Assembly: GCF_030816965.1 (NCBI RefSeq)
Contig: NZ_JAUSYQ010000002.1
Coordinates: 5,367,501 to 5,431,500, forward strand
Source: Streptomyces canus
Lineage (GTDB): Bacteria; Actinomycetota; Actinomycetes; Streptomycetales; Streptomycetaceae
Length of the DNA stretch: 64,000 nt
Reading direction: 5' to 3'
Under the pieces are notes generated by a model. The model was given only the letters and a program-made list of their open reading frames with translations, did no database searches and was not told where the DNA came from. Shown in pieces: positions 8,520 through 46,972 of this stretch (its first letter is position 1; every line of letters begins with the position of its first letter). The translations under genes and the position numbers were made by a program.

Positions 8520-8589
8520 GGATCTCCTTCGACGCGGTGTGTTCCGCCATGCGGTGTCCGCGTCAGCGGTGGCGTGCCGGGGTGTTCCC

Positions 8590-9699: not shown

Positions 9700-9742
9700 A
9701 AAACCCTCCTGGCTCCTGATGCCTTGTCAGGGAACGTGAACG

Positions 9743-10791: not shown

Positions 10792-10815
10792 TTACCCGGC
10801 TGCGCGGGGACAAAC
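10792..10815 (-). promoter_or_regulatory. SigB-like promoter for the stress SDR
   Basis: On the minus strand GTTT is followed after exactly 14 bases by GGGTAA. This matches the Streptomyces SigB-group consensus (GTTT-N14-16-GGGTAT) in both boxes with one mismatch. It points to the SDR of a stress family about 200 bases downstream. Activity is inferred. Confidence 0.45.
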
Positions 10816-10852
10816 AAGCCCCGACGGCACGCACCCGACATGAGGAGACCCG

Positions 10853-12547: not shown

Positions 12548-12653
12548 CGGGACGAGGCAGCGTACGCCGCGACGCGGACCTGCCCGTGATCACCTCGGCG
12601 GCGGCGCCGGCCGAGGTGATCCACCCGGAGATCGACGAAGCCGTGCCCACGGG

Positions 12654-12690
12654 AAGCTCCCGGCTCCGGGTGTCCGGAACCGGGAGCTTT
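12654..12690. terminator. Hairpin terminator between convergent malic enzyme and subtilase genes
   Basis: The left arm GAAGCTCCCGGCTCCGG pairs with the right arm CCGGAACCGGGAGCTTT, a ~16-bp stem with one or two mismatches and a very short loop. It lies between the stops of convergent genes at 12547 and 12714 and can serve both. Confidence 0.7.
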
Positions 12691-12713
12691 CGCCGGTGCC
12701 CGGCGAGAGTGGG

Positions 12714-15700
12714 TCAGTGGGCCGTGGCGATGCGATAGGCCCGTATGACGGTCTGGGTGACGGTGTTGCCCGCCTTGTCCGCGGCGGCGATGCGCAGGGA
12801 GGTGTAACCGGCGTGGCCCGGGTGGTGGAGGAGGGCGTCGGCCGTGGCGCCGTGGCGGGTGACGTGGACGGTCTTCCAGGTGCGGCCGTCGTCGTAGGAG
12901 ACCTGGAGGGTCAGCCGGGTCACGGGGGTCCGCTCGGCGCCCGCGGGGCGCCGCACGGTGAGGGGGAGGCGGAAGGCGCGGCCGGCGGGGGCTGAGTCGG
13001 TGAGGTCGACCGCTCCGCCGGCGCGCACGGTGAGCAGCGGCAGGACCGAGGACGCCGAGCCGCGTGGGCGTGCGGAGGTGAAGCCCCAGGTGACCGAGGA
13101 GCGGGTGCCCAGTGCCGTCCAGTCCGCCGTGCGGGTGGTGTGCGCGGTGAGGGTGTAGCGGCGCTTGCCGGCGGTGGGTGTGGTGATGTCGACCAGGAAG
13201 GGGCTGGATCGGTCGATCACCCGTCCGCCGGACGAGAGCACCACCTCTCCGTCCAGTTCCCCGGTCGCGTAGGACTCGTCGGACTGCTGCCCGGTGCCGG
13301 CGGCCGCGTAGGGCGCGAGGTCCAGGTACAGGTCGTCGCCTTCGCGGGTGGGGCTGTAGACGGCGGGGCCGACAGGAGCCCGGTTCCAGTCGGTGCGGTA
13401 GGTGTGGCCGGCCTGGTAGCGGCGGACCGCGGTGGTCGTGTCGTGGTCGGGGAGGCTGCCGTCGGGCAGGGGCTGCGTGCTGCCGAAGAGGTCCAGGGTG
13501 TGGGTCCAGGTGAGTCCGGGAGAGTAGTACTCGGTCACCCGGCTCGGCAGCGTCGTGCGCAGGGTCGGTATGAACGGCATCTGGTAGTCGTTGGTCGAGG
13601 GCTCGTCAGAGCGCACGGCGACCGCCCGCCTGCCGCCCTGGGAGGCGTAGGTGGCGTGCACGGTGGCCAGTTGCCGGTTGTGGACGACGGGGTCGGTGCC
13701 TGCGGGGACGCCCCCGTTGTGGGAGGTGCGCAGGGAGTAGCGGTAGGCGTGGCCCGCGTCCGTGCCCGTGAGGGTGGTGGAGGCGGCGTAGGTGACGCGG
13801 TGGCCGGTGGCCTGTGCGGTGGGAGTGGCGTACAGGGTGGCCTTGCGTCCGGCGACAGCGGTGAGGGCGTAGACGCCGTCTCCCTGCACGGGGTCCAGTT
13901 CGACGGTGGCCGTGGTGGAGAGGGCGGTGGCGTCCCGGTGGTCGGTGCGGGCTCCGACCTTGCCTGCCGTGCGGCCGTCGAGGGTCACGGAGCGGTCCTG
14001 GTCGGTGCGTACGCCGGTGGCGGTGAGCAGGGTCCGGGGGCCGGTGGTGGTGCCGGAACTGCCGGTCCTGGCGAGGCTGTCGTCGAGGCCGACGATGTCG
14101 TAGTCGTCCTCGGGCAGCCGCAGCCGGAACGTGCCGTCGGGGCCCAGCTTGACCTCCTGCTGGATGCCGGTGCGCGGGCCGAAGACCGTCAGCAGCGTGC
14201 CCGCGGCGGGCCTGCCCTCGTGGTTGAGGCCGGTGATGGTCAGCGTGTGGCGTGCGGGTTCGGCGAAGAGGCCGACCGCGGTACGTACCGTGGTGGTCCC
14301 GGCGGTGGCGACCACGGCGCCGCCGAAGCGGCCGACCTGGGCCTTCGTGGTGCGGCCGGTGACGGTCGCGGTCGCGGTGCCGTGGGCGGGGACGGTGAGG
14401 CCGGTGGCGCCCAGGGAGAAGATGCCCGCCGGGGCCGGCTTGCCGCCGGGACCGTACACGTCCAGGGCGAGCTTGAGGGTGACCGGTTCGTCGCCGTCGT
14501 TGCGGTAGGTGACCTGCCGGGCGGCGGTGGTGCCGGCGTGCGGCCAGGCGAACAGGCCCAGGTTCGCGGCTCCGGAGGTGGCGTACACCTTCTGCCTCAG
14601 CGCGCGCACGACGTCGAGGCGGCCGGAGCCCTGCTGGAAGGCGGTCAGGTTCTTCAGGCCGTGCGTGGAGGAGGTGAGGGCCTGCTTGAAGTCGGCGGCC
14701 TTCCAGGTGGGGTGGGCCTGGGCAAGCAGGGCCACCGCGCCGGTGACGTGCGGGGTGGCCATGGAGGTGCCGGACGCCTGCTCGTAGCGCGGGTTTTCCA
14801 CCGGGGCGTCCATGTTGGTGCCGTCGGCGCGGGCGCCGACGATGTCCTCGCCCGGCGCCACCAGGTCGGGTTTGACGGCGTCGTCGCCGAGCCGGGGGCC
14901 CTGGCTGGAGAAGTCGCTGAGGGTGTCGCGCTTGGTGCTGCTGCCGACGGTGAGCGCGGCATCCGCGCTGCCGGGGCTCCCCACGGTGCCGTCGACGCCG
15001 TTGCCCGTCGGTCCGCCCTCGTTGCCCGCGGCCACCACGAACAGGGTGCCGGTCTGCGCGGTGATCCGGTTCAGGGCGGTGGACACCGGGTCGGTGCCGT
15101 CGGTGGCCGTGTCGCCGAGGCTCAGGTTGACGGCGACGGCGTGCTGGGCCGCGGCCCACTCCATGCCCGCGATGATCTCGCTGTCGGGGCACTCGCCGTT
15201 GTCGTCGCAGACCTTGCCGATGAGCAGCCTGGCGCCCGGCGCGACTCCCGCGTACGTGCCGTGGGAGGCCGCGCCCGTGCCGGCGATGGTGGAGGCGGTG
15301 TGGGTGCCGTGGCCGTAACCGTCCTTCATGCCGGTGCCGGTGAAGTCCTTGGTGCCGGCGATGCGGCCCTTGAAGTCCGGGTGGCCGGCGTCGATACCGG
15401 TGTCCAGGTCGGCGATCAGGACGTTCTTGCCGGTGACACCGGACTTCCAGGCGGTGGGGGCACCGATGATCTTGTTGCTCTCGTCGTCCAGGACCTTCGC
15501 CCTGCCGTCCAGCCAGAGCTTGCTGACGCGGTCGGACAACGTGCCCTTGAGCAGCGACTGCCACAGGCCGCCGGTGCCGTCCTTGGGCTGGGTGAGCGTA
15601 CTGCCGTTCAAGGCGCTCAGGGTGCGGCCGAGCCCGGCGCCGTGAGCGGTGAGGGCGGAGAGAGCGGGTGCCCGGCCGCGCCGCCCGGCGACGATCAACG

Positions 15701-16118
15701 GCAGTGAGCGCGAGTGCGCGTCGTCCCGGCCGATGCGGACCAGCTCCGTGACGTCGAACAGCCGCGCGTCCAACGTACCGGCGGACAGCAGGCGTTCGGC
15801 GTCGGCGGGGACCACGCTGATGTGCTGCTTCCCGGCACGACGGGTGTGCTCCACGCGGAAGCCCATGTCCTCCCGGCCCTTGCCGGGCAGCACGGACACG
15901 GAGGGGCTGCCGCCGCCGGCCCGGGTGCGCAGGGTGACCCGGTCTCCGGTGACGAGGGTGACCGTTCTGGCCGCCTCCTTCCCTGTCCCCGCATGCCGCT
16001 GGGCCGACGTCGCGGCCGGGCCGGCGGCCTCGGCGACCGGCCCCGACACGGCGACCGCGACGGTCACCACGCCTGCGACGGCGGGGAGCATCCCCCACCT
16101 GACTGACTTGGGCAGCAA
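12714..16118 (-). CDS. Secreted S8 family serine peptidase (subtilase), large
   Basis: A 1134-residue secreted subtilase. I chose TTG 16118 because GAAGGAG lies 6 bases upstream; longer frames start within the gap. A signal peptide follows (VRWGMLPAVAGVVTVAVAVS ... AEAAG). The prodomain is residues ~45-190. Catalytic residues: Asp239 (IADLDTGID), His270 (GHGTHTAS), Asn in VAAGNEGG, Ser452 (GTSMATPH). After the ~300-residue peptidase core come ~600 residues of beta-rich, Ig-like and Ca-binding-like domains, usual in large Streptomyces subtilases. It sits 92 bp after the polysaccharide lyase on the same strand. Role: extracellular protein degradation. Confidence 0.92.
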   Translation of the reverse strand: MLPKSVRWGMLPAVAGVVTVAVAVSGPVAEAAGPAATSAQRHAGTGKEAARTVTLVTGDRVTLRTRAGGGSPSVSVLPGKGREDMGFRVEHTRRAGKQHISVVPADAERLLSAGTLDARLFDVTELVRIGRDDAHSRSLPLIVAGRRGRAPALSALTAHGAGLGRTLSALNGSTLTQPKDGTGGLWQSLLKGTLSDRVSKLWLDGRAKVLDDESNKIIGAPTAWKSGVTGKNVLIADLDTGIDAGHPDFKGRIAGTKDFTGTGMKDGYGHGTHTASTIAGTGAASHGTYAGVAPGARLLIGKVCDDNGECPDSEIIAGMEWAAAQHAVAVNLSLGDTATDGTDPVSTALNRITAQTGTLFVVAAGNEGGPTGNGVDGTVGSPGSADAALTVGSSTKRDTLSDFSSQGPRLGDDAVKPDLVAPGEDIVGARADGTNMDAPVENPRYEQASGTSMATPHVTGAVALLAQAHPTWKAADFKQALTSSTHGLKNLTAFQQGSGRLDVVRALRQKVYATSGAANLGLFAWPHAGTTAARQVTYRNDGDEPVTLKLALDVYGPGGKPAPAGIFSLGATGLTVPAHGTATATVTGRTTKAQVGRFGGAVVATAGTTTVRTAVGLFAEPARHTLTITGLNHEGRPAAGTLLTVFGPRTGIQQEVKLGPDGTFRLRLPEDDYDIVGLDDSLARTGSSGTTTGPRTLLTATGVRTDQDRSVTLDGRTAGKVGARTDHRDATALSTTATVELDPVQGDGVYALTAVAGRKATLYATPTAQATGHRVTYAASTTLTGTDAGHAYRYSLRTSHNGGVPAGTDPVVHNRQLATVHATYASQGGRRAVAVRSDEPSTNDYQMPFIPTLRTTLPSRVTEYYSPGLTWTHTLDLFGSTQPLPDGSLPDHDTTTAVRRYQAGHTYRTDWNRAPVGPAVYSPTREGDDLYLDLAPYAAAGTGQQSDESYATGELDGEVVLSSGGRVIDRSSPFLVDITTPTAGKRRYTLTAHTTRTADWTALGTRSSVTWGFTSARPRGSASSVLPLLTVRAGGAVDLTDSAPAGRAFRLPLTVRRPAGAERTPVTRLTLQVSYDDGRTWKTVHVTRHGATADALLHHPGHAGYTSLRIAAADKAGNTVTQTVIRAYRIATAH

Positions 16119-16209
16119 CGCATACTCCTTCGGTGTCCGGCTCCGTGCCGGAATCTGATGAATCGTCAATAGAGGTGCTGCTGAGCGGAGTTCCTGCCGC
16201 CCTGGTCAC

Positions 16210-17901
16210 TCAGGGCAGGAGCTCGATCACGTCGTACGACACGCCGGGGCTGAGGTAGGCACTGCCGCCGGATCCGCTGACGATGTCGAGAGTCAGCTCC
16301 TGGTAGGCGTCAGGGGACTTGACCCAGGCGCTCGCCGGGACGGCGTAGCTGTAGGTGTGGTTGTTGCCCCGGTAGGAGCCCACGGTCAGTGACCGGGTCG
16401 TCGGCTCCTTGGCCGGCGCGGGGACGGCCGAGACCCAGTCGTTGACCCGGACGCGCGGCCTGCCGTTCGCGAACGCCGTGGTGATGGCGATGTTGAGGGT
16501 GTGGCCCGAGGCCAGCTGCTGGGCGGTGAGCCTGAAGCGGATCTTCTGGCGGTCGTTGACGTCCGCCCACTGGTAGCAGGGGAAGTCGTCGGTCCGCGAG
16601 GCACCCACCGTGAAGACGGCGCCGGTCCAGGGCCTGGCCCGTGCGTCGGAGGGGTGCATGGTGGTCATCAGCGAGGCGTTCTTGAAGCCGCGCGGTGTGC
16701 CGCTGAAGTCGCCGATGCGCCAGATCGCCTGCTTCCTGCTCGGGTCGGCGCCGATCGTCAGGGTGTGCAGCGGGGCCGTCCGCCCGGCGGTGACCGTGAC
16801 CCTCGTGGTGTGCACCGCCAGTTCTTCCTTGTAGACGGTGAGCGTGTAGGTGCCGGGCAGCATGTACGGGGACAGGAAACGCCCGGTGGCCGGGTCGACC
16901 TCGGTCCAGTACTGCGCCTCGGCGTTCGCGAAGCCGACGGTGTAGGCGTACGCCGTGTCCCGCCCGGCGATGCCGACCCCCGCGACCCGGCCGCGACCGC
17001 TGCGGCCGACCCAGCCGGCCAGTCCCAGGCCGTCGGCCCAGGAGGTGTCGACACGGTCGTGGCGCAGCGAGGCAGCGGGCTGTCCGCCGTCGGTGAAGGC
17101 CAGGACGTACGGACCCTGCAGGCCGAAGCGCATCGGCTCGGTCTGGTTCTCGCCGTAGTAGAGGATCTCGTACAGGCCGGCGCCGTCCTCGTAGTGGTGG
17201 CGCATGAGCGAGCGGTAGAACGGTCCGCCGGACGCCTTCTCGTGGTTGCTGCGCACCATCCACATGCCGACCTTGCCGTCGCTCCAGCCGACGTGGTCGT
17301 AGTCGATGACGCGCTGGTTGGAGTAGTGCTTGGAGCGGGTGGTGCCGTTCGGCTTGCGGCGGACGTCCTGTGCCTCGATCACGGTGTCGGTGCGGGCGTC
17401 CCAGGAGTCGGGAAGGTTGTTGGGGAACAGGCCGGGCCGGACGCGGACGATGTAGCGGGTGGCGGTGATGGAGGCGTCCGCCTTGTTCGTCCACATGTAG
17501 ACGTTGTTCTCGCCGCGGCGGGCGGCGTAGTAGTGGTGCATCGTGCCGTGCACGACCGTGATCAGGATCGTGTCGCCGGTCCTGCGGATGCTCACGGACG
17601 ACGTCCCCAGGCCCGTCTCGACGTGCGAGTTCTTGCCGCCGTAGCCCTGGTACTCGGTGCCCTTGTACACCAGCGAGGTCAGGTCGCCGTTGCGGTGGTC
17701 GACCTTGAAGACCAGGTCGGCGCCGGTACCGACCACGTACGCGTTCCCGTCGTCGCGGTAGCCGAAGGTCGAGGTGGCCGCGTCGGCGCCCGAGACGAGC
17801 GGTCCGGCGATCGCGGCGCCCCCGGCGAGGGCGAGGCCGCCGACGGCGGTTCTGCGCAGGACGGTGCGTCGGGTCAGGTGTCGGCGAGCGTGCTGGGGCA
17901 T
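16210..17901 (-). CDS. Rhamnogalacturonan lyase-like protein (polysaccharide lyase family 4), Tat-exported
   Basis: A 563-residue secreted protein. The N-terminus (RRTVLRRTAVGGLALAGGAA) carries a twin-arginine signal with an Ala-rich h-region ending near ADAAT. The body has the three-domain layout of PL4: a beta-super-sandwich catalytic domain (residues ~45-330; VDHRNGDLTSLVYKGTEYQG is the usual opening), a fibronectin-III-like domain (LPGTYTLTVYKEELAVHTTR), and a jelly-roll carbohydrate-binding domain to the end. The family cleaves rhamnogalacturonan-I of pectin by beta-elimination. It lies in a run of three secreted enzymes; the neighbours point to plant-polymer or wall degradation. Confidence 0.85.
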   Translation of the reverse strand: MPQHARRHLTRRTVLRRTAVGGLALAGGAAIAGPLVSGADAATSTFGYRDDGNAYVVGTGADLVFKVDHRNGDLTSLVYKGTEYQGYGGKNSHVETGLGTSSVSIRRTGDTILITVVHGTMHHYYAARRGENNVYMWTNKADASITATRYIVRVRPGLFPNNLPDSWDARTDTVIEAQDVRRKPNGTTRSKHYSNQRVIDYDHVGWSDGKVGMWMVRSNHEKASGGPFYRSLMRHHYEDGAGLYEILYYGENQTEPMRFGLQGPYVLAFTDGGQPAASLRHDRVDTSWADGLGLAGWVGRSGRGRVAGVGIAGRDTAYAYTVGFANAEAQYWTEVDPATGRFLSPYMLPGTYTLTVYKEELAVHTTRVTVTAGRTAPLHTLTIGADPSRKQAIWRIGDFSGTPRGFKNASLMTTMHPSDARARPWTGAVFTVGASRTDDFPCYQWADVNDRQKIRFRLTAQQLASGHTLNIAITTAFANGRPRVRVNDWVSAVPAPAKEPTTRSLTVGSYRGNNHTYSYAVPASAWVKSPDAYQELTLDIVSGSGGSAYLSPGVSYDVIELLP

Positions 17902-32563: not shown

Positions 32564-32611
32564 TGGAGCGGGTGACGAGAATCGAACTCGCGCTCTCAGC
32601 TTGGGAAGCTG
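32564..32611. repeat. attL core (48-bp tRNA-Gly 3' fragment)
   Basis: Identical over 48 bases to 46899-46946. The tRNA reading (minus strand) is broken after the anticodon-stem position, so only the 3' half remains here. Paired TTCCCC motifs at 32695 and 32705, one helical turn apart, look like integrase arm sites. A TGGTGC pair at 32719-32736 recurs at 46820-46837 by the other end. Confidence 0.9.
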
Positions 32612-33020: not shown

Positions 33021-33345
33021 GCCCTCAACCTAGCTGCCGCGACTGGCGGCGTCGTGGGCCGGCGCTGCCGTGAGGACCAACACGCCTTCCAACTGTGGTG
33101 GTGAGGTTGTGGGCTGAGTTCAGGGGCGTTTACCTGGGTTCACGGCCGGTTGGCCGCCGATGCAGGGACGGGTGCAAGTCTCGCCTGAACGGCCGTGAAC
33201 GCAGCTGTATGAGACGGAAATTGAGGCGGTCGCGCGTTCTACAGACCTTCTTGCTGCCGTGATAGGCCCAAGAGGAGGTCACACAGCTTCTGTTGGCCGA
33301 ACAGGCACGCTTGTCCACTTCTTGGCATGTCCTCACACTTCCGCC

Positions 33346-34284: not shown

Positions 34285-37200
34285 TCAATCCATGAGCCCT
34301 CTCTCTAGCAGTGTATTGCGGAGCCGACGGTATTCGGCCGTGTTGGCAAGTGAACCAGCGGAAAGTAGCGCATTTCGAGCGTGTGTGGCCACTTCCCTCC
34401 GATCCCATTCCTCTTCGAGCCCTCTAACAAGTGAGTCAAGTATTGCCAAAGTTTCCGTCGTTTGTTCCTGACCTGCCGCTCTCTCGGCTACGGATTGCGG
34501 CAAATCAATCTTTCCGCGGGTGGAGGTCAGCATGACCTGTGTTATGCGACTCCAGTCGCTATCTGCAATAGTCTGAACTTCGGCCATCCAGCCAAATCCG
34601 AACAACTCGTGAGAATGATCCCTTACCGCTATCTCCCAGAATTCTGTAGCCGCAGCAACATGATCATCTGAGACGCTTTCGCCTCTCAGTACGAGTCCGA
34701 GTGTCTTTCCTGCCTCAGAAACCTCCCCCTCGTTTTCGGAGAGGAAGGCAAGGGTCTCACTAGGGGAGTAACCTTGAACTCTCCAAAGCATTGCAATCAT
34801 GTAATGGGAGAGTGCGTTTTGCACTCCTCTCCGAACGGCATCCCTGATAGCGCTCCGATAATTTTCGAGGAGCCATTCGTAGGGTTGCCCCCACTGCAAG
34901 GCAAGGTCGACAGCCGTTTGCCCCAAGGCCGGAGGGGATTCGTCACCAAAGAGTTTTGGTGCAATCGCATGTAGCCATTCAGGAGCGACGTATGCGATAA
35001 ATCTAACTTTTGGTGCAATAATGGCGCGAGCCTCCGCGCCGTCACGTCCGGTAAGCGTCAACAGTGAGTCGATGATGCGCAGGCCATCTGGCCGAACAAG
35101 GCCTGCTTTGTGCTCCATTGAGACTACGGAGAAAATCGCCTCCAAGGCCCGCGTGAAAGGCCTGTTGATCGCCGTCTCCAGGTAATCGACTGAGTCCGAG
35201 ATGATGCCGGAAGATTCAGACCGGTCTTCAACCTCACTTGTAAGGGCGGACCAGACATAGTCATCTCGATTACCGAAACCGATATTGGATTGCGCGAGTG
35301 CTTTGATCAGAGCCACACCGGCATGTTCCGTCGGTCGCCATGTAGGGTCATAATCAAAGTCATTATTCCCCAGGGACGCGACTGGCCACGGATGAGTGCG
35401 AGTCAGCTCGATCAAATCAACTATCTTGCTGGCTGATTCATTCTGTACTGCGGAGATACCGTTGGCCAGGCCCTGCAGATAATGGGCGATATATGTCGGA
35501 TGGCGAAGCTGGCTGGCAATGACTACTGGATCTCGCGCCCACTCTGCGGCGTTGGATGACACGGCAGATTCTAGAGCCCTCCCGAGCTCGCGCGCACTAA
35601 CCAGCCACTCAGCGTCGCTGGGGGACCAGTTAGCTACCCACAGCGCAGCATCTTGAGGTGACATGGCACCCAGTTCTTCGCTGGCTATCGGACTTCTGCC
35701 GAAACCAAACGTTGTCCTAATAGGATCCTTGTGCTTTACCGGTGGCCCGTATGCGCCTGAGATCACTGCTACAACAGTTGCCCAAGATACGCTTACCTCG
35801 GCGGGAAGGAAGACACTCCAGCGATAGGCTCGAAGCCATTCGTCGTCCATATTGCGCTCAGCGAGTGCAGTTCCCAGCTCTTGCAGCCCAGGTGGAGTCC
35901 CCAGCGAATCCTGCCAAGCGGATACGTATGACTCCTCTAGACTTTCGTCAACCACGCGCTGTATCAGCAGCTCATCATCGGAAAGTGGATCACGCGTTGC
36001 GATGGCCGACACTAGCTCGTCATTAATCGGACCAATTTCGACATCCTGCGAGTTCGCCAGAATCCACGATCGAGCACGCTCCCTCAAGGCAGCGGGAAGC
36101 GGGCTCGTTGCTGTAAGTAGATCACCAGAGTTGAACAGCTCAACCAACTGCTTGAGGCAGGAAACCAATCCTTTCAACAGTATTGGAAGTATTCCGCGAT
36201 CACTTTCTTGCCCGCTATATTCACTCAAAGATGCATTTTGCATTAGGAAGAGGGTGTGGGTCAAGTCTTCCTTCGGCGCGTCGGATATTCTGTATGCCAG
36301 AATTTTCAGGCGCTTCAAGCCATTTTCTTGATTCAGTCCAGAGCAATAGGTGTCCATGAATTTCTGGATGTAGGTCTGGGAGTGAGACCAATTAGAATGG
36401 TTCAATACAATATTGGCGACGAACTCCATGAAGGCGCCTGCATCGGGGTTTGCCTCGGCCGAGCTCACAGCAAAGGTCGATATGGCTGGCGACCGCGGAT
36501 GCTTCTGCAGGCAAAGCCTTAGGATCGAGTGTCCGTGTTCAGCGATGTCGAGAGCGGCTCGTGCGGGATACCAAGTGGCTGTCTCGGTGCGGATGAACTT
36601 CCTAGCTATTTTTTCAAGGATGCCAGCCAGTTGATAGGCATGCTCATCCTTAAGTTCGTCAACTGCAGCAAACATAGGCCATCCCTGACCATCTGTGGGT
36701 GGGTCCAAAAGCTGCGTATCCAAAAGGAGTTCTAGCCATGCAGGGTGACTAAGCTGTCCCAGGAAGCGGCGTAGATGGTAGGGACTTACAATCAGCTGTT
36801 TGAGTTTTTCAAGGTCCTGAGGGGTTGGAGAATGCAGTAGTGCCAATTCATCGAGTTCGGCAATTCGGACCTCTGGCGGCGTGAAGAGTTGCCGCAGTAT
36901 TGACGCGCAGTCACGCCATAGGTCTCTGGCTGCATTGATCGTTATTCCGCTGTGTAGACCCCTATCCAAGCGGCTCAAAATCTTCTGGTATGACGTGATT
37001 GGGGCTACGTCTCCAGCAGTAAGCGGTTGAGTGCCGGTACGGTTTACGATTACCGCAATTAGTCGCCGTTGATGTACGGCGTCTTGTTTGTGGAAGGTGT
37101 CGAGAGCGTCGACTTTATTGAAGAGGCGTTGAATCGCACTCTCTCTATCTTCATCAGTCAGTTCGGCAGCGGCCAGAAGCTGCTGTTTGGCCTCTACGAC

Positions 37201-37440
37201 CTCACGAGACAAGACTTTCCATTCCCCGCCGCTGCTGGCTGTGCTCTGTGAAGAGGGGATCGCCTTCATCGCCTCCCTCAAGGCGTAGGCAATGAGTGAA
37301 CCGTGCTCTGGGATGGAGTTGTCGTCAAGAGCAGTCAAGGCCTGGGCCGATCGCAGGAAGCTAACTGCCCGCTTGCCATCGTCGTTCAGTTCGTCGACGA
37401 GGTGGGCCAGCAGTGTCTCGTCTAGCTCTGGAATCTCCAT
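34285..37440 (-). CDS. Large alpha-solenoid-like protein of unknown function, low GC cargo
   Basis: A 1051-residue protein; ATG 37440 has AAAGGGA upstream, favoured over a longer frame from 37647. It is almost wholly helical (many LxxL, AxxA helical repeats). A segment at residues ~195-260 (VSPYHLRRFLGQLSHPAWLE then LLLDTQLLDPP...WPMFAAVDELK) resembles the 'NP.QLRWFF..L.DP.WL..L...GFF..PP' stretch found in large HEAT-like proteins near NTPases of actinobacterial islands. No Walker, nuclease or TIR motif is seen. GC and codon use are clearly lower than all neighbours, showing recent transfer. Position in element cargo makes anti-phage or immunity function plausible, but that is inference. No family assigned with confidence. 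Confidence 0.75.
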   Translation of the reverse strand: MEIPELDETLLAHLVDELNDDGKRAVSFLRSAQALTALDDNSIPEHGSLIAYALREAMKAIPSSQSTASSGGEWKVLSREVVEAKQQLLAAAELTDEDRESAIQRLFNKVDALDTFHKQDAVHQRRLIAVIVNRTGTQPLTAGDVAPITSYQKILSRLDRGLHSGITINAARDLWRDCASILRQLFTPPEVRIAELDELALLHSPTPQDLEKLKQLIVSPYHLRRFLGQLSHPAWLELLLDTQLLDPPTDGQGWPMFAAVDELKDEHAYQLAGILEKIARKFIRTETATWYPARAALDIAEHGHSILRLCLQKHPRSPAISTFAVSSAEANPDAGAFMEFVANIVLNHSNWSHSQTYIQKFMDTYCSGLNQENGLKRLKILAYRISDAPKEDLTHTLFLMQNASLSEYSGQESDRGILPILLKGLVSCLKQLVELFNSGDLLTATSPLPAALRERARSWILANSQDVEIGPINDELVSAIATRDPLSDDELLIQRVVDESLEESYVSAWQDSLGTPPGLQELGTALAERNMDDEWLRAYRWSVFLPAEVSVSWATVVAVISGAYGPPVKHKDPIRTTFGFGRSPIASEELGAMSPQDAALWVANWSPSDAEWLVSARELGRALESAVSSNAAEWARDPVVIASQLRHPTYIAHYLQGLANGISAVQNESASKIVDLIELTRTHPWPVASLGNNDFDYDPTWRPTEHAGVALIKALAQSNIGFGNRDDYVWSALTSEVEDRSESSGIISDSVDYLETAINRPFTRALEAIFSVVSMEHKAGLVRPDGLRIIDSLLTLTGRDGAEARAIIAPKVRFIAYVAPEWLHAIAPKLFGDESPPALGQTAVDLALQWGQPYEWLLENYRSAIRDAVRRGVQNALSHYMIAMLWRVQGYSPSETLAFLSENEGEVSEAGKTLGLVLRGESVSDDHVAAATEFWEIAVRDHSHELFGFGWMAEVQTIADSDWSRITQVMLTSTRGKIDLPQSVAERAAGQEQTTETLAILDSLVRGLEEEWDRREVATHARNALLSAGSLANTAEYRRLRNTLLERGLMD

Positions 37441-37538
37441 ATTCCCTTTTAGCACATCACCGCAACATGCGACATCGCTTTGAACGCGTAGGTGAGTTAC
37501 TGAGTGAAGGTCGGTGGAGCGGCTTTGGGGTGGCGCTG

Positions 37539-37649
37539 CTTTGGCGCGAGTGATCATGGCCCCGTAAGCTTCCGGCGCGTCGGGCAGTCTGTGGACCTGC
37601 CCGTTAAAGCACGACGTTGGGGCCATGATCTTCGAGGCTCGCGCCAAAG
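37539..37649. repeat. Long nested inverted repeat, candidate replication or transfer origin
   Basis: CTTTGGCGCGAG (37539-37550) pairs perfectly with CTCGCGCCAAAG (37638-37649), and GATCATGGCCCC (37552-37563) with GGGGCCATGATC (37619-37630). The single-base and 7-base bulges are TTCGAGG side. The loop contains CGGGCAG/CTGCCCG (37581-37587, 37597-37603). A further hairpin GGCTCCG/CGGAGCC follows at 37651-37672 and GCCCGGCC/GGCCGGGC at 37780-37798. The gap 37441-37850 has no gene. This dense structure fits a single-strand origin or clt-like transfer locus of a rolling-circle element. Confidence 0.6.
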
Positions 37650-37850
37650 TGGCTCCGTAAAGCCGCGGAGCCGACCGCCCCAGCCACGACGTACCCCTTC
37701 TCTGGCATCAGGTGGCTGCACGCTTTGAGCGCGGCGCGGACGCCGGCCGGGTTGGAGCGGGGCGGAGACAGGAGCGCAGGCCCGGCCGGGGGCCGGGCCG
37801 CGCGCGGGGAGCGGAGCGAGCCGCCTTGAATCAGTAGAGAAAGTTGTAAC

Positions 37851-38255
37851 TCAGTCGGCCTGCCGGGGCGTGTGAGGCTCTGTGTGTGGTTTGAAGTCCT
37901 GAGCGCAGGACGGAAGTTCGGCCTCTTGGCGGTGTGCCAGTGGCAGGAAGATCACGGGTCGGATCGTCCAGTTGATGCGAGTACGGGCCTGGGTGAGCGT
38001 CACTGTGCAGGGCTCGGCGCGTAGGAGTGCCTTCCTCGTGGTGATGCGGCCGTCGTACAGCCACTCCCACGCGTCCTGGGAGGCGTCGGGATCCAGTGCC
38101 GGTGAGATCGTGCGCAGTGCGACCGCCACCCATCTGTCGGCCTGTGGTGCCGAGTACGCGTCGAAGGAAGCCCGGAGGGTCGGCAGTGTCTCGGCGGTGA
38201 GGTCTTCGGTCCAGCACTCGCACCAGTAGCCGCGCTGCGGCTTGTCCATCAGCAT
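37851..38255 (-). CDS. AICE-encoded hypothetical protein
   Basis: A 134-residue soluble protein (MLMDKPQRGYWCECWTEDLT, then TLPTLRASFDAYSAPQADRW). Trp and Cys are frequent in the N-terminal half. Proteins like this occur beside the HATPase gene in other Streptomyces integrative elements, as far as I can recall. Its ATG 38255 overlaps the last codons of the HATPase gene (ATGCTGA), with GGGAGG upstream, so the two are coupled. It is the second gene of a two-gene minus-strand unit. No biochemical role is known. Confidence 0.7.
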   Translation of the reverse strand: MLMDKPQRGYWCECWTEDLTAETLPTLRASFDAYSAPQADRWVAVALRTISPALDPDASQDAWEWLYDGRITTRKALLRAEPCTVTLTQARTRINWTIRPVIFLPLAHRQEAELPSCAQDFKPHTEPHTPRQAD

Positions 38256-38677
38256 GGGTGGCCTCCCACAGGCGGGCCCGTGAAGAGCTCCGCGGTGACC
38301 GTGTGGCCGCCGTCACTCTCGTGGACCACAACCCGGTGAGCGATCACGCTGACCATGCCCAGGCCTCGGCCGTGTTCAGCGTCCTGGTCCTGACGCTCGA
38401 TCTTCGGGGCGGTGCCGGCGCCTCCGTCGTCCGTGACCGACAGCGCGATTACCTGTGCTGATACGGCCAGGGCCAGATGGAAGCTGCCCGAGTCCTGGCC
38501 GCTGGCGGTGTGGAGGATCGCGTTCGCGCTCAGTTCGCTCACGATCAGTTCGGCGTCCTCGGCCAGCGGTGATCCGTGCAGGATGTCGCGGGTCCAGCGG
38601 CGGGCCCGGCTGACCTCTTCCGGGAAACCTGGGCAAGTGAGCCCCCAGACCCGGGCCGTACTCGTATACTCGTGCAT
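38249..38677 (-). CDS. ATP-binding protein, RsbW-like HATPase_c
   Basis: A 142-residue GHKL-type ATP-binding domain alone, as in anti-sigma factors. N-box DAELIVSELSANAILHT (~residues 43-59) has the Glu/Asn pair; the G1 motif is VTDDGGAGTAP and the G2 motif GRGLGMVSVIAHR. Start ATG 38677 has GAAGGA upstream, preferred over ATG 38707. Such standalone kinases phosphorylate or bind anti-anti-sigma factors; single copies are frequent in Streptomyces and in AICEs. It may alter the host's sigma regulation. The first codons contain two copies of the element's ACGAGTA half-site (see 38660-38678). Confidence 0.8.
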   Translation of the reverse strand: MHEYTSTARVWGLTCPGFPEEVSRARRWTRDILHGSPLAEDAELIVSELSANAILHTASGQDSGSFHLALAVSAQVIALSVTDDGGAGTAPKIERQDQDAEHGRGLGMVSVIAHRVVVHESDGGHTVTAELFTGPPVGGHPC

Positions 38678-38723: not shown

Positions 38724-39155
38724 CTAGACGAGTTTCACGCCGTCGTGGGCGCGGATGGCGGGTGGAGACGCCGCGTCCATCGCGTCCAGGACGCGGATGG
38801 CGTACGCCTCGTCGGCAAGCTCGGAGACTTCTTCGCGGGTGGCCCAGCGCAGTGCGCGGGTCTCGTCGCCTGTGGTGGGTGTGCCGTCGGCGGCCTGGCA
38901 GCGGAAGACCAGGGAGACGATCAGGCCCGTCATGTTCTTGTAGACGCCGGTGAGAGTCGCAGGAAGGGCGATCTTGATGCCGGTTTCTTCGAGGACTTCG
39001 CGTTGCAGGGCCTCGGGGATGGTCTCCTCGCGTTCGAGGACGCCGCCCGGGGGTTCCCATTTGCCGTTGTCGCGGCGCTGGATCAGGAGGGCCCGGCCCA
39101 GGTTGTCGACGACGACTCCGGCCACGCTCACGGAGTGCGGGCGTTCTCTGCTCAC
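38724..39155 (-). CDS. pif: Nudix hydrolase, Pif-like
   Basis: A 143-residue protein with the Nudix box at residues 38-60 (GVLEREETIPEALQREVLEE, then TGI) complete: G-x5-E-x7-REUxEExGU. Start GTG 39155 follows CGAGGAAC at good spacing, giving MSRERPHSVSV; a longer in-frame start at 39212 is less likely. In pSAM2 the Nudix protein Pif blocks transfer into a host already holding the element. It is next to the KorA-like regulator, as in pSAM2. The exact substrate is unknown. It starts 86 bp from korA, divergently. Confidence 0.82.
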   Translation of the reverse strand: MSRERPHSVSVAGVVVDNLGRALLIQRRDNGKWEPPGGVLEREETIPEALQREVLEETGIKIALPATLTGVYKNMTGLIVSLVFRCQAADGTPTTGDETRALRWATREEVSELADEAYAIRVLDAMDAASPPAIRAHDGVKLV

Positions 39156-39240: not shown

Positions 39241-40032
39241 GTGACCCCTGCCCTTCCCTCCGGCCAGCTCGGTGATCTCGACCCCACGAGCGATCGTGCG
39301 GTCTTCCGGCAGATCGCCGACCAGTTGCGCGAGGCCATCGACCGTGGGCGGTTCAGAGAGGGCGAGAAGCTGCCCTCCGAGGCTGAGCTTGTGGACCACT
39401 ACGGGGTATCCCGGATGACCGTCCGCAACTCCTTCTCCATCCTGCAGGGGGAAGGACTCGTCCATGCCGAGCATGGCAAGGGTGTGTTCGTCCGGCCCCG
39501 CCCGCCCGTACGGCGACTCGCCTCCGACCGGTTCGCCCGCCGGCATCGGGAGCAGGGCAAGTCTGCCTTCATCGTCGAGGCGGACACGGTCGGCAGCCAT
39601 CCCCAGGTCGACAGCCTTGAGGTCAAGGAAGAGAAGGCCAGTCAGGACATCTCCACGCGGCTCGGCTCGGTACGGCGTGTACTCGCCCGGCGCCGGCGGT
39701 ACCTCCTCGACGGTCGGCCGGTCGAGTTCGCGACCTCCTATCTCCCCCTCGACATCGCCCGCGGTACGCAGATCGCCGAGCCGAACCCCGGGCCGGGCGG
39801 TATCTACGCCCGTCTCGAAGAACTCGGCCACCGCTTGGACCACTTCGAGGAGGAGATCCGGGCCCGGATGCCCTCGCCGGACGAGGTCAAGACGCTCCGG
39901 CTGGCCTCCGGCGTGCCCGTCATCCACCTGGTCCGCACCGCCTTCGACACCGAGGGTCGAGCCGTTGAAGTCTGTGACACGGTCATGGCGGCAGACGCAT
40001 ACGTCCTGTCGTACCAGCTCCCCGCGACCTGA
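39241..40032 (+). CDS. korA: GntR family regulator of the element, KorA/KorSA-like
   Basis: A 263-residue protein. The N-terminal winged HTH (residues ~18-88; PSEAELVDHYGVSRMTVRNS, LQGEGLVHAEHGKGVFV) is the GntR type; the C-terminal ~160 residues are a UTRA effector domain (SVRRVLARRRRYLLDGRPVE). GTG 39241 has AAAGGAG at ideal distance. In pSAM2 the equivalent KorSA represses pra and its own gene, keeping the element integrated. Several ACGAGT motifs occur at the gene starts it should control. Divergent to the Nudix gene. DNA binding itself is inferred. Confidence 0.85.
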   Translation: MTPALPSGQLGDLDPTSDRAVFRQIADQLREAIDRGRFREGEKLPSEAELVDHYGVSRMTVRNSFSILQGEGLVHAEHGKGVFVRPRPPVRRLASDRFARRHREQGKSAFIVEADTVGSHPQVDSLEVKEEKASQDISTRLGSVRRVLARRRRYLLDGRPVEFATSYLPLDIARGTQIAEPNPGPGGIYARLEELGHRLDHFEEEIRARMPSPDEVKTLRLASGVPVIHLVRTAFDTEGRAVEVCDTVMAADAYVLSYQLPAT

Positions 40033-40601: not shown

Positions 40602-40958
40602 TTGCGCACCATCCGTGTTGAGACCTCCGCCGCCACGATCCTCCTCACCGAGGCTCCTGAGCCCAAGGTCCGCGACCGTCAGACCGGCGAGATCGCCAAG
40701 GACGCCGTCAGTGGTGAGGCGCTGATGACGCTCGGCGTCGTCTACATCGAGGACGGCGAGTCCTCGCTGATCAAGGTCACCGTGCCGGAGGGCGGTGTCT
40801 CTGAGGGATTGAACCTCGGCGCTCCGGTCTCGCTGCCGGGGCTTTTCGCCCGGCCGTGGGAGTCCGTGTTCAACGGGCAGCAGCGTCACGGCATCGCCTA
40901 CCGCGCCGCCGCCGTCACCCCGGCCGCCTTCCCGGCCGCCATGGGAGCCACCGCCTGA
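40602..40958 (+). CDS. SCO3933-like regulatory protein of the transfer module
   Basis: A 118-residue protein (MRTIRVETSAATILLTEAPE, then PKVRDRQTGEIAKDAVSGEA after a TTG start). Proteins with this pattern are annotated as SCO3933-family regulators and lie before the tra gene in Streptomyces elements; their role is likely in control of conjugation. TTG 40602 begins the conserved N-terminus; an ATG at 40572 would start inside the operator-like motif. The stop TGA overlaps the ATG of the tra gene (TGATG). beta-rich middle, no catalytic residues seen. Confidence 0.75.
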   Translation: MRTIRVETSAATILLTEAPEPKVRDRQTGEIAKDAVSGEALMTLGVVYIEDGESSLIKVTVPEGGVSEGLNLGAPVSLPGLFARPWESVFNGQQRHGIAYRAAAVTPAAFPAAMGATA

Positions 40959-42334
40959 TGGCCGACCTGACGACGCTCCTGGAGGTGGGTGGTCCTGTCG
41001 CCGCGCTCGGCGGCGGGGCTGCCTACACCCGGGCCAAGTACCCGGCGGTCTACTGGTCCGCCGTCGGCGGCCCGATATCCACCGTCCGCCTGCTCAACTC
41101 GTACAGCTCCGTCATGGAGGCCTGCGGCCTGACCGTCGCACCCTCCCGGCTGCGGGTTCTCGCCGTGAAAGCCACCACCCGGCGAGAAGTCCGGCCGGTC
41201 CCGCCCCGCCGGGGACTCATCCGACCCACCTCGACCGGGCTGCGCATCCGGCTGCGGCTCGCACCCGGGCAGGAACCCGCCGACGTCGCCGCCTCGGCCG
41301 AACGGCTGCGGCACGCCTGGGGCGTTCACGCCGTCTACGTCACCACGATCAAGCCGGGTGTGGTCGAACTGCGGCTCGTCGGCTACGACGTCCTGCGGCG
41401 GGTGCGCATGCCCCGTAAGGCAGACTCCGGGTTTCTCAAGGTGCCGGTAGCGCTGCGGGAGAACGCCACGCCCTTCGTACGCGACTACCAGACCGTTCCC
41501 CACCAACTCACCCTCGGCGCAACCCTGTCCGGCAAGTCCATGTATCTGCGCCATCTCATCGCGGGACTGGCTCGACAGGCGGTCGCTCTCGTTGGCATCG
41601 ACTGCAAGCGGGGCGTCGAACTGGCGCCCTTCGCCGCTCGCCTGTCCGCCCTCGCCACCGACCCGGACGAAGCCGCAGAGCTGCTGCCCGTGCTGGTCAA
41701 GGAAATGGAGGACCGATACGACCTGATCAAGGCCAGGCAGGGCATCGCGCCCGGCACCCCGGACGAGGAGATCACCTCCGACATCTGGGGCCTGCCCGAT
41801 AGCGAACGCCCCGTGCCCATCGTCCTGTTCGTCGACGAGGTGGCCGAGCTCTTCCTCACCGCCACCCGCAAGGACGAGGAACGCCGGGACGAGATGGTCA
41901 CCCAGCTCATCCGCCTCGCCCAGCTCGGCCGAGCGGCCGGCATCTACCTGGAGGTGTGCGGGCAGCGCTTCGGTGCCGAACTCGGCAAGGGCGCCACCAT
42001 GCTCCGGGCCCAGCTCACCGGCCGGGTCTGCCACCGTGTCAACGACGAGGCCTCCGCCAAGATGGCGCTCGGCGACATCGCCCCGGAAGCGGTCTCCGCT
42101 GCCTGCGCCATCGCCCCAGAACTGCCCGGCCTGGCCGTCGCGGGCGACAACTCCGGCGGCTGGTCCCGCATCCGCACGCCATATCTCTCCCTCGGCGATG
42201 CCGCCGAGATCTGCCGGGAGTCGGCGCACCTCGTGCCCGACCTGCCCGCGCTCAAGCCCTTCCGGCCCGACGTCCCCGTACGCCTCGTAGAGACCTCGGG
42301 CCCGGTAATCCTGCCGCACCCGGTGACCGACTGA
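40958..42334 (+). CDS. traSA: FtsK/SpoIIIE-type DNA translocase, TraSA-like conjugation protein
   Basis: A 458-residue protein. The N-terminus has a single weak membrane segment (VGGPVAALGGGAAYTRAKYP). The FtsK core has Walker A GATLSGKS at ~187-194, Walker B IVLFVDEVAEL near ~289, and the downstream LAQLGRAAGIYLEVCGQRF. The C-terminal region ends without a clear FtsK gamma domain, as in TraSA/TraB. In Streptomyces a single TraB/TraSA protein moves double-stranded DNA through the mating contact. ATG overlaps the stop of the upstream gene (TGATG). The upstream regulator and downstream Spd genes form one transfer operon. Confidence 0.9.
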   Translation: MADLTTLLEVGGPVAALGGGAAYTRAKYPAVYWSAVGGPISTVRLLNSYSSVMEACGLTVAPSRLRVLAVKATTRREVRPVPPRRGLIRPTSTGLRIRLRLAPGQEPADVAASAERLRHAWGVHAVYVTTIKPGVVELRLVGYDVLRRVRMPRKADSGFLKVPVALRENATPFVRDYQTVPHQLTLGATLSGKSMYLRHLIAGLARQAVALVGIDCKRGVELAPFAARLSALATDPDEAAELLPVLVKEMEDRYDLIKARQGIAPGTPDEEITSDIWGLPDSERPVPIVLFVDEVAELFLTATRKDEERRDEMVTQLIRLAQLGRAAGIYLEVCGQRFGAELGKGATMLRAQLTGRVCHRVNDEASAKMALGDIAPEAVSAACAIAPELPGLAVAGDNSGGWSRIRTPYLSLGDAAEICRESAHLVPDLPALKPFRPDVPVRLVETSGPVILPHPVTD

Positions 42335-44080: not shown

Positions 44081-45424
44081 ATCTTCACCCGCACCACCCC
44101 AGCCCCCGTGCCGGAACTCGCGAACCTGGCCGCCCAGGGCACCCTCCCCGGTATCCTCCGCCAGCTCTCCAGCCTCGGCGGCTGCACTCACCCCATCCGC
44201 CTCGACGGCCACCGCACCGAATACGACCTCGACACCACCACCGGCGAGATCGGCCGCATCCTCCACCACCTCGACTCGACCAGCCTCCCCGCCGGCCAAC
44301 TCCTCGTCCGCTGCAATAACCGCCGCACAACCCGCTGCCCGGCCTGCGCAGAGGTCTACCGCCGCGACACCTTCCACCTGATCACCGCCGGACTGCGCGG
44401 CGGCAAGGGCACCCCGGAACAGGTCGGCGCCCACCCCCGCGTGTTCGCCACCTTCACCGCCCCCGGCTTCGGCCCGGTCCACAACCGCCGCACCGACGGC
44501 CGCCCCTGCCGCTGCGGCCTCCACCACGACCAGGACGACGACACCCTCGGCACCCCGCTCAACCCCGACACCTACGACTACGAAGCCGCCGTCCTCTGGA
44601 ACGCCCACGCGGGAGCTCTCTGGCGCCGCTTCTCGATCTACCTCCGCCGGGAAGTCGCCAAGCGCGCAGGCCTCTCACAACGCCGACTCCGCGACCACGC
44701 CCGCGTGTCCTTCGCCAAGGTCGCCGAGTACCAGAAGCGCGGAGCCGTCCACTTCCATGCAGTCATCCGCCTCGACGGCCCCGGCGGTGGAGACACCTCA
44801 CCGCCTGCTTGGGCCACCGCCGAGCTGCTCACCGACGCAATCCAAGCCGCGACCACGAAGGTCCGCGTGGACGGCCCGGTCATCAGCGGCCGCACCCACA
44901 CCTTCACCTTCGGCGACCAACTCGACGTCCGCACCATCCGATCCGCCGACTTCAACGACGGCCAGGAGCTCACCGAACGAGCCGTCGCCGCCTACATCGC
45001 CAAGTACGCAACCAAGGGCGCCGAAACAGCGACCGGCGCCCTCGACCGCCCGCTTAAGTTCGTCGCCGAGCTTGCCCAACTCGACATCAACGACCACGCC
45101 CGCCAACTCATCCGCACCGCCTGGACCCTCGGCGCCCGCAAAGACCTCGAACACCTCCGCCTGCGCGACTGGGCCCACATGCTCGGCTTCCGAGGCCACT
45201 TCTCCACCAAATCCCGCGGCTACTCCACCACCCTCGGCGCTCTTCGCAACGCCCGCGCCGAATGGCGCCGCGCCCAAGCCGCAGAAGCCACCAACCCTCA
45301 GCCGGAGACGACGTACGTCCTCGCCCACTGGGTCTTCGCCGGAACCGGCCTCTCCGACACCGAAGCCTGGCTGTCCGCATCCCTCGAACCCGCCCCCGGA
45401 ACGGAAGGGGAACCCACCGCATGA
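44081..45424 (+). CDS. repSA: Rolling-circle replication initiator, RepSA-like
   Basis: About 447 residues if it starts at the in-frame ATC 44081, which follows GAAGGAGAAGCGTC; 438 residues from GTG 44108. The HUH motif AVHFHAVIRLD (~residue 214 from GTG) binds metal, and AAYIAKYATKG (~residue 300) carries the likely catalytic Tyr. A Cys pair (RRTTRCPACAEVYRR) and CRCGLHH near residue 140 form a zinc-binding-like site common in Rep proteins of AICEs. It nicks the double-strand origin and begins replication after excision. Its stop overlaps xis (ATGA). Confidence 0.88.
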   Translation: MFTRTTPAPVPELANLAAQGTLPGILRQLSSLGGCTHPIRLDGHRTEYDLDTTTGEIGRILHHLDSTSLPAGQLLVRCNNRRTTRCPACAEVYRRDTFHLITAGLRGGKGTPEQVGAHPRVFATFTAPGFGPVHNRRTDGRPCRCGLHHDQDDDTLGTPLNPDTYDYEAAVLWNAHAGALWRRFSIYLRREVAKRAGLSQRRLRDHARVSFAKVAEYQKRGAVHFHAVIRLDGPGGGDTSPPAWATAELLTDAIQAATTKVRVDGPVISGRTHTFTFGDQLDVRTIRSADFNDGQELTERAVAAYIAKYATKGAETATGALDRPLKFVAELAQLDINDHARQLIRTAWTLGARKDLEHLRLRDWAHMLGFRGHFSTKSRGYSTTLGALRNARAEWRRAQAAEATNPQPETTYVLAHWVFAGTGLSDTEAWLSASLEPAPGTEGEPTA

Positions 45425-45633
45425 CCGATCGCTACCTGTCCGTCGACCAGGTCGCCGAGCTGCTCGGCACGACCGCCCGCTTTCCCCGGCGGCTGATCGA
45501 GGAACGGCGCATCCGGTACGTGAAGCTCGGCCGGCATGTGCGCATCCCGGAGAGCGCGGTCGAGGAGTTCGTCCAGTCCCGCACAGTCGAGCCGATCAGA
45601 CTCCGCCGCACCGGACTTCGGAGGGTCGCCTGA
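45421..45633 (+). CDS. xis: Excisionase, MerR-like helix-turn-helix
   Basis: A 70-residue protein (RYLSVDQVAELLGTTARFPR, then RLIEERRIRYVKLGRHVRIP) matching the MerR-like/DUF excisionase HTH_17 fold, with the helix-turn-helix in residues ~5-28 and basic wing 35-55. ATG 45421 overlaps the rep stop and its TGA overlaps the int start (TGATG), so rep, xis and int are translationally coupled. It is needed with Int for excision. Confidence 0.87.
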   Translation: MTDRYLSVDQVAELLGTTARFPRRLIEERRIRYVKLGRHVRIPESAVEEFVQSRTVEPIRLRRTGLRRVA

Positions 45634-46808
45634 TGGCCAACAAGAAGGGGAGACGTCGCCGCTTCGGGGCAGTGCGGCAGTACCGGTCCGGCCGCTGGAC
45701 CGCCTCGTACCTCGGTCCCGACGGTGAACGCATCCGCGCGGAGGAGACCTTCGAGACCAAGAAGGACGCGGAAGTCTGGCTGTCCCAGGTAGAGGCAGAC
45801 CTCACCCGAGGAGACTGGCGCGCTCCCGACGCCGGAGAGGTCAACTTCCGCGTCTACGCCGAAAAGTGGGTGGAGGAACGAGAGCTGGCCGTTCGCACCG
45901 ACGACCTGTACAAGCACCTGCTCCGCCTGTACATCCTCCCCACCTTCGGTGCCCTCGACCTGGACGAGATCACCGCTCCCCGCGTCCGTGAATGGAGGGC
46001 CGAGCGACTCCGTACGACCAAAGCCAAGACAACCGTCGCCAAGGCGTACCGCCTCCTCAAGGCCATTCTTGAGACAGCCGTCGACGACGATCTGATCACT
46101 CGCAACCCGTGCCGTATCAAGGGCGCAGGCAAGGAGTCAGCCACCGAACGTCGTATCGCCACTGTCGCCCAGGTCGACGCCCTCGCCAACGCCATCGGCA
46201 TCCGCTGGCGCCTGATGGTCTACCTGGGCGCGTACGGCCCCATGCGGCCCGAGGAACTGGCCGGCCTCCGCCGCCGAGACGTAGACCCGGACAACCTCGT
46301 GATCCACGTCCGCGTCGCCGAACCCGAGCGCACGAACGGCAAGCGGGCTCCCGGTGAGACCAAGTCCGACGCGGGTGTCCGTGCCGTCGTCCTCCCGGCC
46401 TTTCTTCACAAGGAGGTGAAGCAGCACCTCGCCTGGTTCGCGGAGAAGGGGGATGACGGGCTGGTGTTCGTCGGCGAGAAGGGAGCTCCGTTCCGGCGCA
46501 CTTCCTTCGGCCGGAAGTGGCGTCGGGCCCGCGCCGCTGCCGGTCTCCCAGACGGTTTCCGCTTCTACGACCTTCGCCACACCGGACACACGCTCTCGAC
46601 CCGCTCCGGTGCCACCCTCAAGGACACGATGGTCCGCGCGGGCCAGTCCTCCGAGAAGGCGGCGCTTATCTATCAGCACTCCGACGAGGAGCGGCAGCGA
46701 GACATCGCCTCCGGCCTCGACGACATGGTCCGTGCCGAGCGTGCGAAGCACCACAAGCAGGGGAGCGACCGCCCCGCGCACCACAAGGAGAAGTCCACCG
46801 GAAGCTAG
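45633..46808 (+). CDS. int: Tyrosine integrase
   Basis: A 391-residue tyrosine recombinase. The N-terminal arm-binding domain (residues ~8-65) has GAVRQYRSGRWTASYLGPDG; the core-binding domain covers ~75-160; the catalytic domain ~175-370. Catalytic residues: Arg205 (GPMRPEEL), Arg315 and nearby His in FYDLRHTGHT (His316/His319), Tyr347 (IYQHSDEE). It lies 90 bp from attR and integrates the element into the 3' end of tRNA-Gly. A degraded relative is at 5945-6325. Its C-terminus (RAERAKHHKQGSDRPAHHKE) is basic and low-complexity. Confidence 0.93.
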   Translation: MANKKGRRRRFGAVRQYRSGRWTASYLGPDGERIRAEETFETKKDAEVWLSQVEADLTRGDWRAPDAGEVNFRVYAEKWVEERELAVRTDDLYKHLLRLYILPTFGALDLDEITAPRVREWRAERLRTTKAKTTVAKAYRLLKAILETAVDDDLITRNPCRIKGAGKESATERRIATVAQVDALANAIGIRWRLMVYLGAYGPMRPEELAGLRRRDVDPDNLVIHVRVAEPERTNGKRAPGETKSDAGVRAVVLPAFLHKEVKQHLAWFAEKGDDGLVFVGEKGAPFRRTSFGRKWRRARAAAGLPDGFRFYDLRHTGHTLSTRSGATLKDTMVRAGQSSEKAALIYQHSDEERQRDIASGLDDMVRAERAKHHKQGSDRPAHHKEKSTGS

Positions 46809-46898: not shown

Positions 46899-46946
46899 TG
46901 GAGCGGGTGACGAGAATCGAACTCGCGCTCTCAGCTTGGGAAGCTG
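46899..46946. repeat. attR core (48 bp)
   Basis: Perfect match to attL at 32564-32611. The intact tRNA is on this side, so the element brought a copy of the tRNA 3' half and restored the gene. The TGGTGC pair at 46820-46837 lies 60 bp inside and matches the pair near attL. Confidence 0.92.
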
Positions 46947-46972
46947 ATGTTCTACCATTAAACTACACCCGC
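46899..46972 (-). tRNA. tRNA-Gly (anticodon CCC)
   Basis: The minus strand folds as a tRNA: acceptor GCGGGTG/CACCCGC, D-stem GTTT/GAAC, anticodon stem TCAGC/GCTGA with loop TTCCCAA (anticodon CCC), and T-arm with GTTCGATTC. 71 nt without CCA (46902-46972); CCA is encoded at 46899-46901. The 3' half (46899-46946) is the attR core, restored by the integrated element. Confidence 0.95.

Follow-up and report, generated by a model that had tools for sequence, protein, structure and literature searches.

A low-GC gene for a large helical protein on a Streptomyces integrative element: a candidate single-gene defence protein with a stepwise link to Dsr1

Organisation of the integrative element and its cargo gene

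The window analysed here, a stretch of 64,000 nucleotides from Streptomyces canus, contains a 14.4-kb pSAM2-type integrative element (AICE) inserted in a tRNA-Gly gene. A repeat search delimited the element by a perfect 48-bp direct repeat, of which the attL copy (32564-32611) is identical to part of the tRNA-Gly and the attR copy (46899-46946) lies inside tRNA-Gly(CCC) (46899-46972, minus strand). On the plus strand, Pfam searches identified a tyrosine integrase (45633-46808, Phage_integrase, 5.1e-11), an excisionase-like HTH_17 protein (45421-45633), the pSAM2-type replication initiator RepSA (44108-45424, PF20199, 2.6e-152), an FtsK-like Tra translocase (40958-42334, PF01580, 1.2e-34) and a GntR/UTRA regulator (39241-40032). 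On the minus strand they identified a NUDIX protein (38724-39155, PF00293, 7.1e-19) and a HATPase_c_2 protein (38249-38677, PF13581, 2.2e-14). The element thus has the features by which a pSAM2-type AICE is recognised, namely a tyrosine integrase, att repeats in a tRNA gene, a RepSA-type Rep and an FtsK-like transfer gene.

Between attL and the HATPase/NUDIX end of the AICE lies an intact open reading frame of 1051 codons on the minus strand (34285-37440; ATG at 37440, stop at 34285), which encodes the all-alpha protein P0001 and was characterised by ORF calling, base composition, AlphaFold and 36 homologues. It is alone between attL and the element core, the adjoining ORFs being only small or weak, and is present in a single copy in the 10.66-Mb, two-contig genome. 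A TTG start would lengthen the frame as far as 37647; the ATG at 37440 is the exact start in 10 of the 14 close relatives P0002-P0015, the other four having extensions of 5 to 129 residues, and AAAGGGA is found directly upstream of it. The GC content of the gene is 53.9% (62/45/55% by codon position), compared with 71.5% on average (sd 2.4%, minimum 67%) in the 30 called window genes longer than 600 bp, a set that leans to high GC because the caller, which did not call the cargo gene itself, was trained on high-GC3 frames. The same dip appears in the 1-kb GC profile of the window. The original prediction had described a low-GC gene of 1051 residues, unlike its neighbours and carried as cargo of an element; the intact frame, the deviant composition, the att copies and the AICE gene set bear this out.

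The cargo slot in sibling elements and the structured region upstream of the gene

Matches to the AICE integrase at E ≤ 1e-100 were found in 73 of 219 genomes of the genus, the own genome included, and 11 stretches fetched around such matches served as sibling elements. The AICE core was matched by blastn in all of them, at least in part, and the cargo gene (34285-37440) in none of the 11 (E ≤ 1e-5). Shorter matches were obtained for 33078-33230 (153 bp) in L070 and for 33081-33218 in L076. Seven siblings were readable across the slot; of the other four, contig ends truncate L073 and L077, and L076 and L078 have undergone rearrangement. Both direct repeats are present in six of the seven, and L074, whose contig ends early, shows no repeat. 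The left repeat of L080, with 4 mismatches of 48, was seen in the extended stretch L081, and it encloses both slot genes.

Nine longer or low-GC ORFs from the slots of six readable siblings (L070 was left out) were scanned with PADLOC, and five of the nine proteins, belonging to four of the seven readable siblings, matched at E ≤ 1e-3. The matched genes of these four slots have a low GC content, 53-55%. Matches were strong in two slots, that of L080 with a PDC-S73 protein containing nSTAND3 (7.8e-95) and a GmrSD/NsnA protein (1.4e-29), and that of L075 with a type IIG/ISP restriction enzyme (type IIG RM, 7.4e-92). They were weak in L074 (a DUF4365 protein, Aga-REase, 6.8e-9) and L071 (a DUF4238 protein, DUF4238-Pers, 1.1e-5), and the scanned slot ORFs of L072 and L079 gave none. 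As a rough control, at least 2 of 24 window genes outside the AICE also match PADLOC models, one of which is described as a kinase. The slot cargo of L080, at 11317-13077 and 14073-16598 of that stretch, combines a GmrSD/AlbA-like gene with the nSTAND3 gene (PDC-S73). Streptomyces AICEs are described, in the sections considered here of a study of their cargo (PMC9513070), as shared cores with variable cargo, restriction and Abi genes included; the window's element resembles them in this respect, and the P0001 family is not named among the cargo in those sections.

The region upstream of the cargo gene is strongly structured (z = -3.98, with none of 100 shuffles as good), as had been predicted for this apparent single-gene unit. 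Repeat searches and blastn against the siblings delimited a GC-rich hairpin block bordering the slot (37658-37858), with inverted repeat arms at 37729-37751 and 37781-37803, and a second inverted-repeat set just upstream of the gene (37532-37656; arms 37532-37550/37638-37656 and 37552-37563/37619-37630). The hairpin block is conserved over at least 124 bp at 82-91% identity in 6 of the 11 sibling AICEs (L070, L071, L072, L074, L075 and L080), even where the adjoining genes differ, so that part of the upstream structure is AICE backbone. It is absent from L079, though the core of L079 is the closest there (92.5%). The second set is matched by blastn in one sibling, L074, from 37555. The structure is real, but much of it is a feature of the element rather than of the gene. 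The hairpin block may act as a terminator, or in cis as a site for transfer or replication. Rfam gave no match, promoters numbered 3 where 1.6 were expected, and terminators 4 where 3.8 were expected. Should P0001 prove defensive, the variable slot between attL and the conserved hairpin block would offer a simple place to search for further Streptomyces defence genes.

Predicted structure and conserved residues of P0001

The AlphaFold model of P0001 is all-helical (pLDDT 86.7, pTM 0.62). Alignments and a separate model, in which it was folded alone with a pLDDT of 80.6, define an N-terminal helical domain of residues 1-205 (36826-37440, minus strand), and the model, fold searches and profiles a solenoid-like helical part of residues 206-1051 (34288-36825, minus strand). 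Fold matches of the latter are HEAT/ARM-like and generic only, with low Foldseek TM-scores (about 0.1-0.25). Importins and PP2A are prominent among the fold matches of P0001, the VIA Z values of its model reach 11.9, as those of any helical model may, and a viral fold library gave nothing below 1e-3. The fold search thus designates no single housekeeping family.

Neither Pfam nor PADLOC, Dsr1 models included, gave a match to P0001 at E ≤ 10, in agreement with the earlier statement that it has no recognisable enzyme domain. The sole NCBIfam match, LctobiosidLnbX (0.026), and the RidL/Interaptin matches at about 1e-3 in a PDB sequence search were dismissed as short chance similarities.

Residues 232-255 (36676-36747, minus strand) read HPAWLELLLDTQLLDPPTDGQGWP, and alignments show here the family motif HPAWLELL...LLDPP....WP. 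An alignment of 22 diverse members shows no variation at G22, R55, W235 and W254. The stretch resembling 'L.DP.WL..L......PP' that had been pointed out in P0001 is thus present, and the helical solenoid-like model agrees with the prediction made from it; the proposed tie of the motif to proteins beside STAND NTPases did not hold, the motif going instead with Dsr1-related proteins. A STAND-like gene was found near one relative, L036 (Avs1b, 4.6e-9).

Residues 1-205 gave no clear fold match, a HEPN toxin being among several tied helical bundles. The HEPN motif is R-x4-6-H. In P0001 we find R157-x5-H163. Arginine occupies position 157 in 26 of the 35 close relatives and in 9 of the 22 diverse ones, whereas H163 is retained in all 35 and in 21 of the 22. 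A separate alignment of 19 N-terminal pieces has R55 in all 19 and H163 in 13. R157-x5-H163 fits the motif in 26 of the 35 close relatives, so that a HEPN-like output would be conceivable; we do not claim the N-terminal head as a HEPN domain.

The P0001 family and its stepwise link to Dsr1

When the 7992 candidates sharing most words with P0001 were scored, 36 proteins matched it by sequence, 16 at 70% identity or more (12 of them named Streptomyces) and the rest at 28-46%. Alignment A1 comprises 35 of the 37 proteins, P0016 and P0017 (994 aa) being left out; length and N-terminal residues are conserved across the close family. The distribution is patchy: among 295 genomes of the genus the single protein retrieved its own genome only, a profile built from 35 sequences had matches in 13 of 392 genomes of the genus and in 3 of 396 of the phylum, and a wider profile in 9 of 325 of the class, the own genome being included in each of the three profile counts. 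In a collection of genome contigs the single sequence found no relative and the profile found one; viral contigs, phages and, by tblastn, plasmids gave none. A bridging group centred on two relatives, L007 and L065, comprises at least 105 proteins in the database. We did not meet the family in the open literature; it is nameless, so this is no sign of its being unpublished.

L007 matches the PADLOC Dsr1 model PDLC04166 at 3.7e-29 over 508 residues (profile positions 545-1020 of 1227); of the six other distant relatives among the seven scanned, L026 gave 0.023 and five no match. The profile of the close family, which contains no bridging member, matches L007 at 3.8e-18, L065 at 5.9e-13, fusions with a YyaL-like half at 2e-9 (L068) and 7e-8, L066 at 1.2e-5 and the Dsr1 ORF L067 at 5.9e-4. 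Outside the family the best value was E = 22, in a control set of 297 other ORFs together with reversed and shuffled decoys; 11 of these ORFs are family members that score in between and were not counted as unrelated. We prefer these close-family values to others of 4e-16 to 5e-53, since the profile behind the latter already holds L007. By hhalign, the L067 Dsr1 ORF aligns with the close family at a probability of 53%, with L007 at 95%, the YyaL-like fusions at 91% and L065 at 86%, and with TEL, STR2, STR3, L062 and INT at 7% or less; L007 against the contig-end group TEL gave 0.3%.

Importins, PP2A and the DSR2 chain are not among the seven PDB sequences listed by the family profile at E ≤ 10, and the absence of the first two argues that the Dsr1 link is no general solenoid effect. 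A search of L007 and the L067 ORF against solved structures found no relative, with one match at 0.89. SIR2 was not found in P0001 by Pfam at E ≤ 10, nor among the weak matches of the 19 N-terminal pieces. In the genome G353, Dsr1 spans two ORFs (L067 5025-8159 and 8159-9154), the SIR2 part being separate.

From these profile comparisons the family appears to be linked stepwise to the helical part of Dsr1-type proteins, the last step, from the close family, being weak. Via L007 and L067 it may share with Dsr1 (PDLC04166/PDLC04167) the helical region behind SIR2; P0001 differs from Dsr1 by its lack of a SIR2 match, its other helical head and the lack of its own match to the Dsr1 models. P0001 thus appears to be distantly related to a known sensor module without belonging to Dsr1 itself, and a family for which searches yielded no Pfam, PADLOC or NCBIfam model can tentatively be placed next to Dsr1's sensing half.

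Genomic contexts of the relatives

Neighbouring genes were scanned with PADLOC at 8 of 18 relative loci, and 6 of the 8 had matching neighbours, which is no unbiased rate because the loci were picked by eye, partly for looking interesting. Relaxase, integrase, GTPase, DUF3644, biotin genes and sigma factors in these contexts were named from reading of translations. A HNH protein (PDC-M68A, 8.2e-25) neighbours L027, a PDC-S28 match (1.6e-293) L029 and a HEC-05 match (1.7e-44) L032; Lamassu LmuA/LmuB lie 12-16 kb from L034 (L040). One neighbour protein each was scanned for L062 and L066, with no PADLOC match.

In the genome G336, L007 sits behind DruE/YprA-like, DpdE/DrmD-like and DrmMI-like genes and PDC-S19, from which it is separated by 9 bp; small genes in between read as toxin-antitoxin parts, and an ORF overlapping L007 reads as a GTPase. 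ARMADA type I is composed of YprA, BrxHII/RapA and PglX, according to the sections considered here of the study describing it (PMC12458937). The G336 gene set is much like it, plus extras, and a protein like L007 is not mentioned in those sections. The AICE of the window contains no ARMADA-type genes that we could find. Since the G336 relative shares an ARMADA-like operon with several other genes and P0001 has no recognised enzyme domain, P0001 could be conceived as a sensing or scaffolding subunit that depends on a partner whose gene lies elsewhere and is inert or regulatory when alone on this AICE. The isolation of the gene between attL and the element core and the conserved length and N-terminal residues of the close family speak against such a dependence, which we consider rather improbable.

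Two proteins of 1600 aa, L068 (336-5132) and L069 (5812-10623), join a YyaL/DUF255-like half to the family solenoid and lie beside biotin-type genes; PF03190 (YyaL) is also listed in the database for two proteins of the bridging group, P0142 and P0146. The original prediction would have been weakened by homologues in mainly core contexts, and these fusions do lie in metabolic surroundings. The fusions, together with the generic fold matches, would suit an accessory metabolic or regulatory protein outside conflict, with a Dsr1 likeness that reflects a shared protein-binding module only. The patchy distribution, and the occurrence of several relatives as cargo or at contig ends, make this very improbable.

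AICE-like genes adjoin L065, which has the corresponding place and orientation by reading of translations and seems to be the cargo of a second AICE; L066 lies directly behind xis- and int-like genes, also read from translations. Four further relatives (L026 382-3723, L028 665-4009, L034 539-3946 and L036 371-3946) start 371-665 bp from a contig end, behind a stretch rich in short palindromes whose loops read CTGG/CTGA, which resembles the ends of linear replicons. G252, a single contig of 11.3 Mb, has family matches at both ends. Members of one branch of the family may occupy the outermost gene position on linear Streptomyces replicons, three of the contig ends, outside G252, being possibly assembly ends.

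Such locations would also be expected if P0001 served the element or a linear replicon, by excluding rival AICEs at entry, in conjugation, or in the protection and partition of DNA ends, with the solenoid scaffolding transfer proteins of the element itself: the gene is AICE cargo, L065 and L066 lie beside mobile-element genes, and four relatives follow palindrome arrays near contig ends. The 11 sibling AICE stretches do without the gene, however, P0001 has no tblastn match in the plasmid collection, L007 belongs to a defence-type operon and L027, L029 and L032 are near PADLOC matches. A service to the element is on this evidence unlikely.

Proposed function of P0001

We favour, with moderate confidence, the interpretation that P0001 is a single-gene immune protein carried by the AICE. 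A role in phage defence is plausible and better supported than before: the PADLOC matches in the slots of four of seven siblings, the apparent AICE cargo L065, the operon of L007 and the link to Dsr1 all point to the candidate defence system originally proposed, and it is from them that we infer it. DSR2, in the part considered here of a study on it (PMC11087589), combines an N-terminal output domain with an alpha-solenoid that binds the phage tail tube. P0001 would resemble it as a putative output head followed by a solenoid, a mechanistic analogy, and differs in having no SIR2 match. By this analogy the likeliest role of P0001 is that of a solenoid protein that senses a phage or plasmid product. 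Much as the DSR2 solenoid grips the tail tube, the solenoid of P0001 would bind a conserved molecule produced by an invading phage or a rival element; binding would alter assembly, and the N-terminal domain, in place of the SIR2 NADase, or a partner would then block the invader or the cell. Candidate outputs are RNase-like HEPN activity, a switch in oligomeric state and simple sequestration. If P0001 does defend, solenoids of this kind would work with outputs other than SIR2. A more tentative and rather doubtful extension is that the family represents unrecognised single-gene immune sensors, made of a Dsr1-related solenoid with exchangeable heads (SIR2 in Dsr1, a helical and perhaps HEPN-like one here, YyaL-like in others) and carried as AICE cargo, with one branch placed outermost at palindromic linear Streptomyces ends, which it may guard.

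Two minor arrangements were also observed among the relatives. The locus L031 holds two tandem family paralogues (8188-12543 and 12872-16414), and L063 (9576-10253) and L064 (9617-10375) hold family pieces of 225 and 252 aa, apparently remnants.
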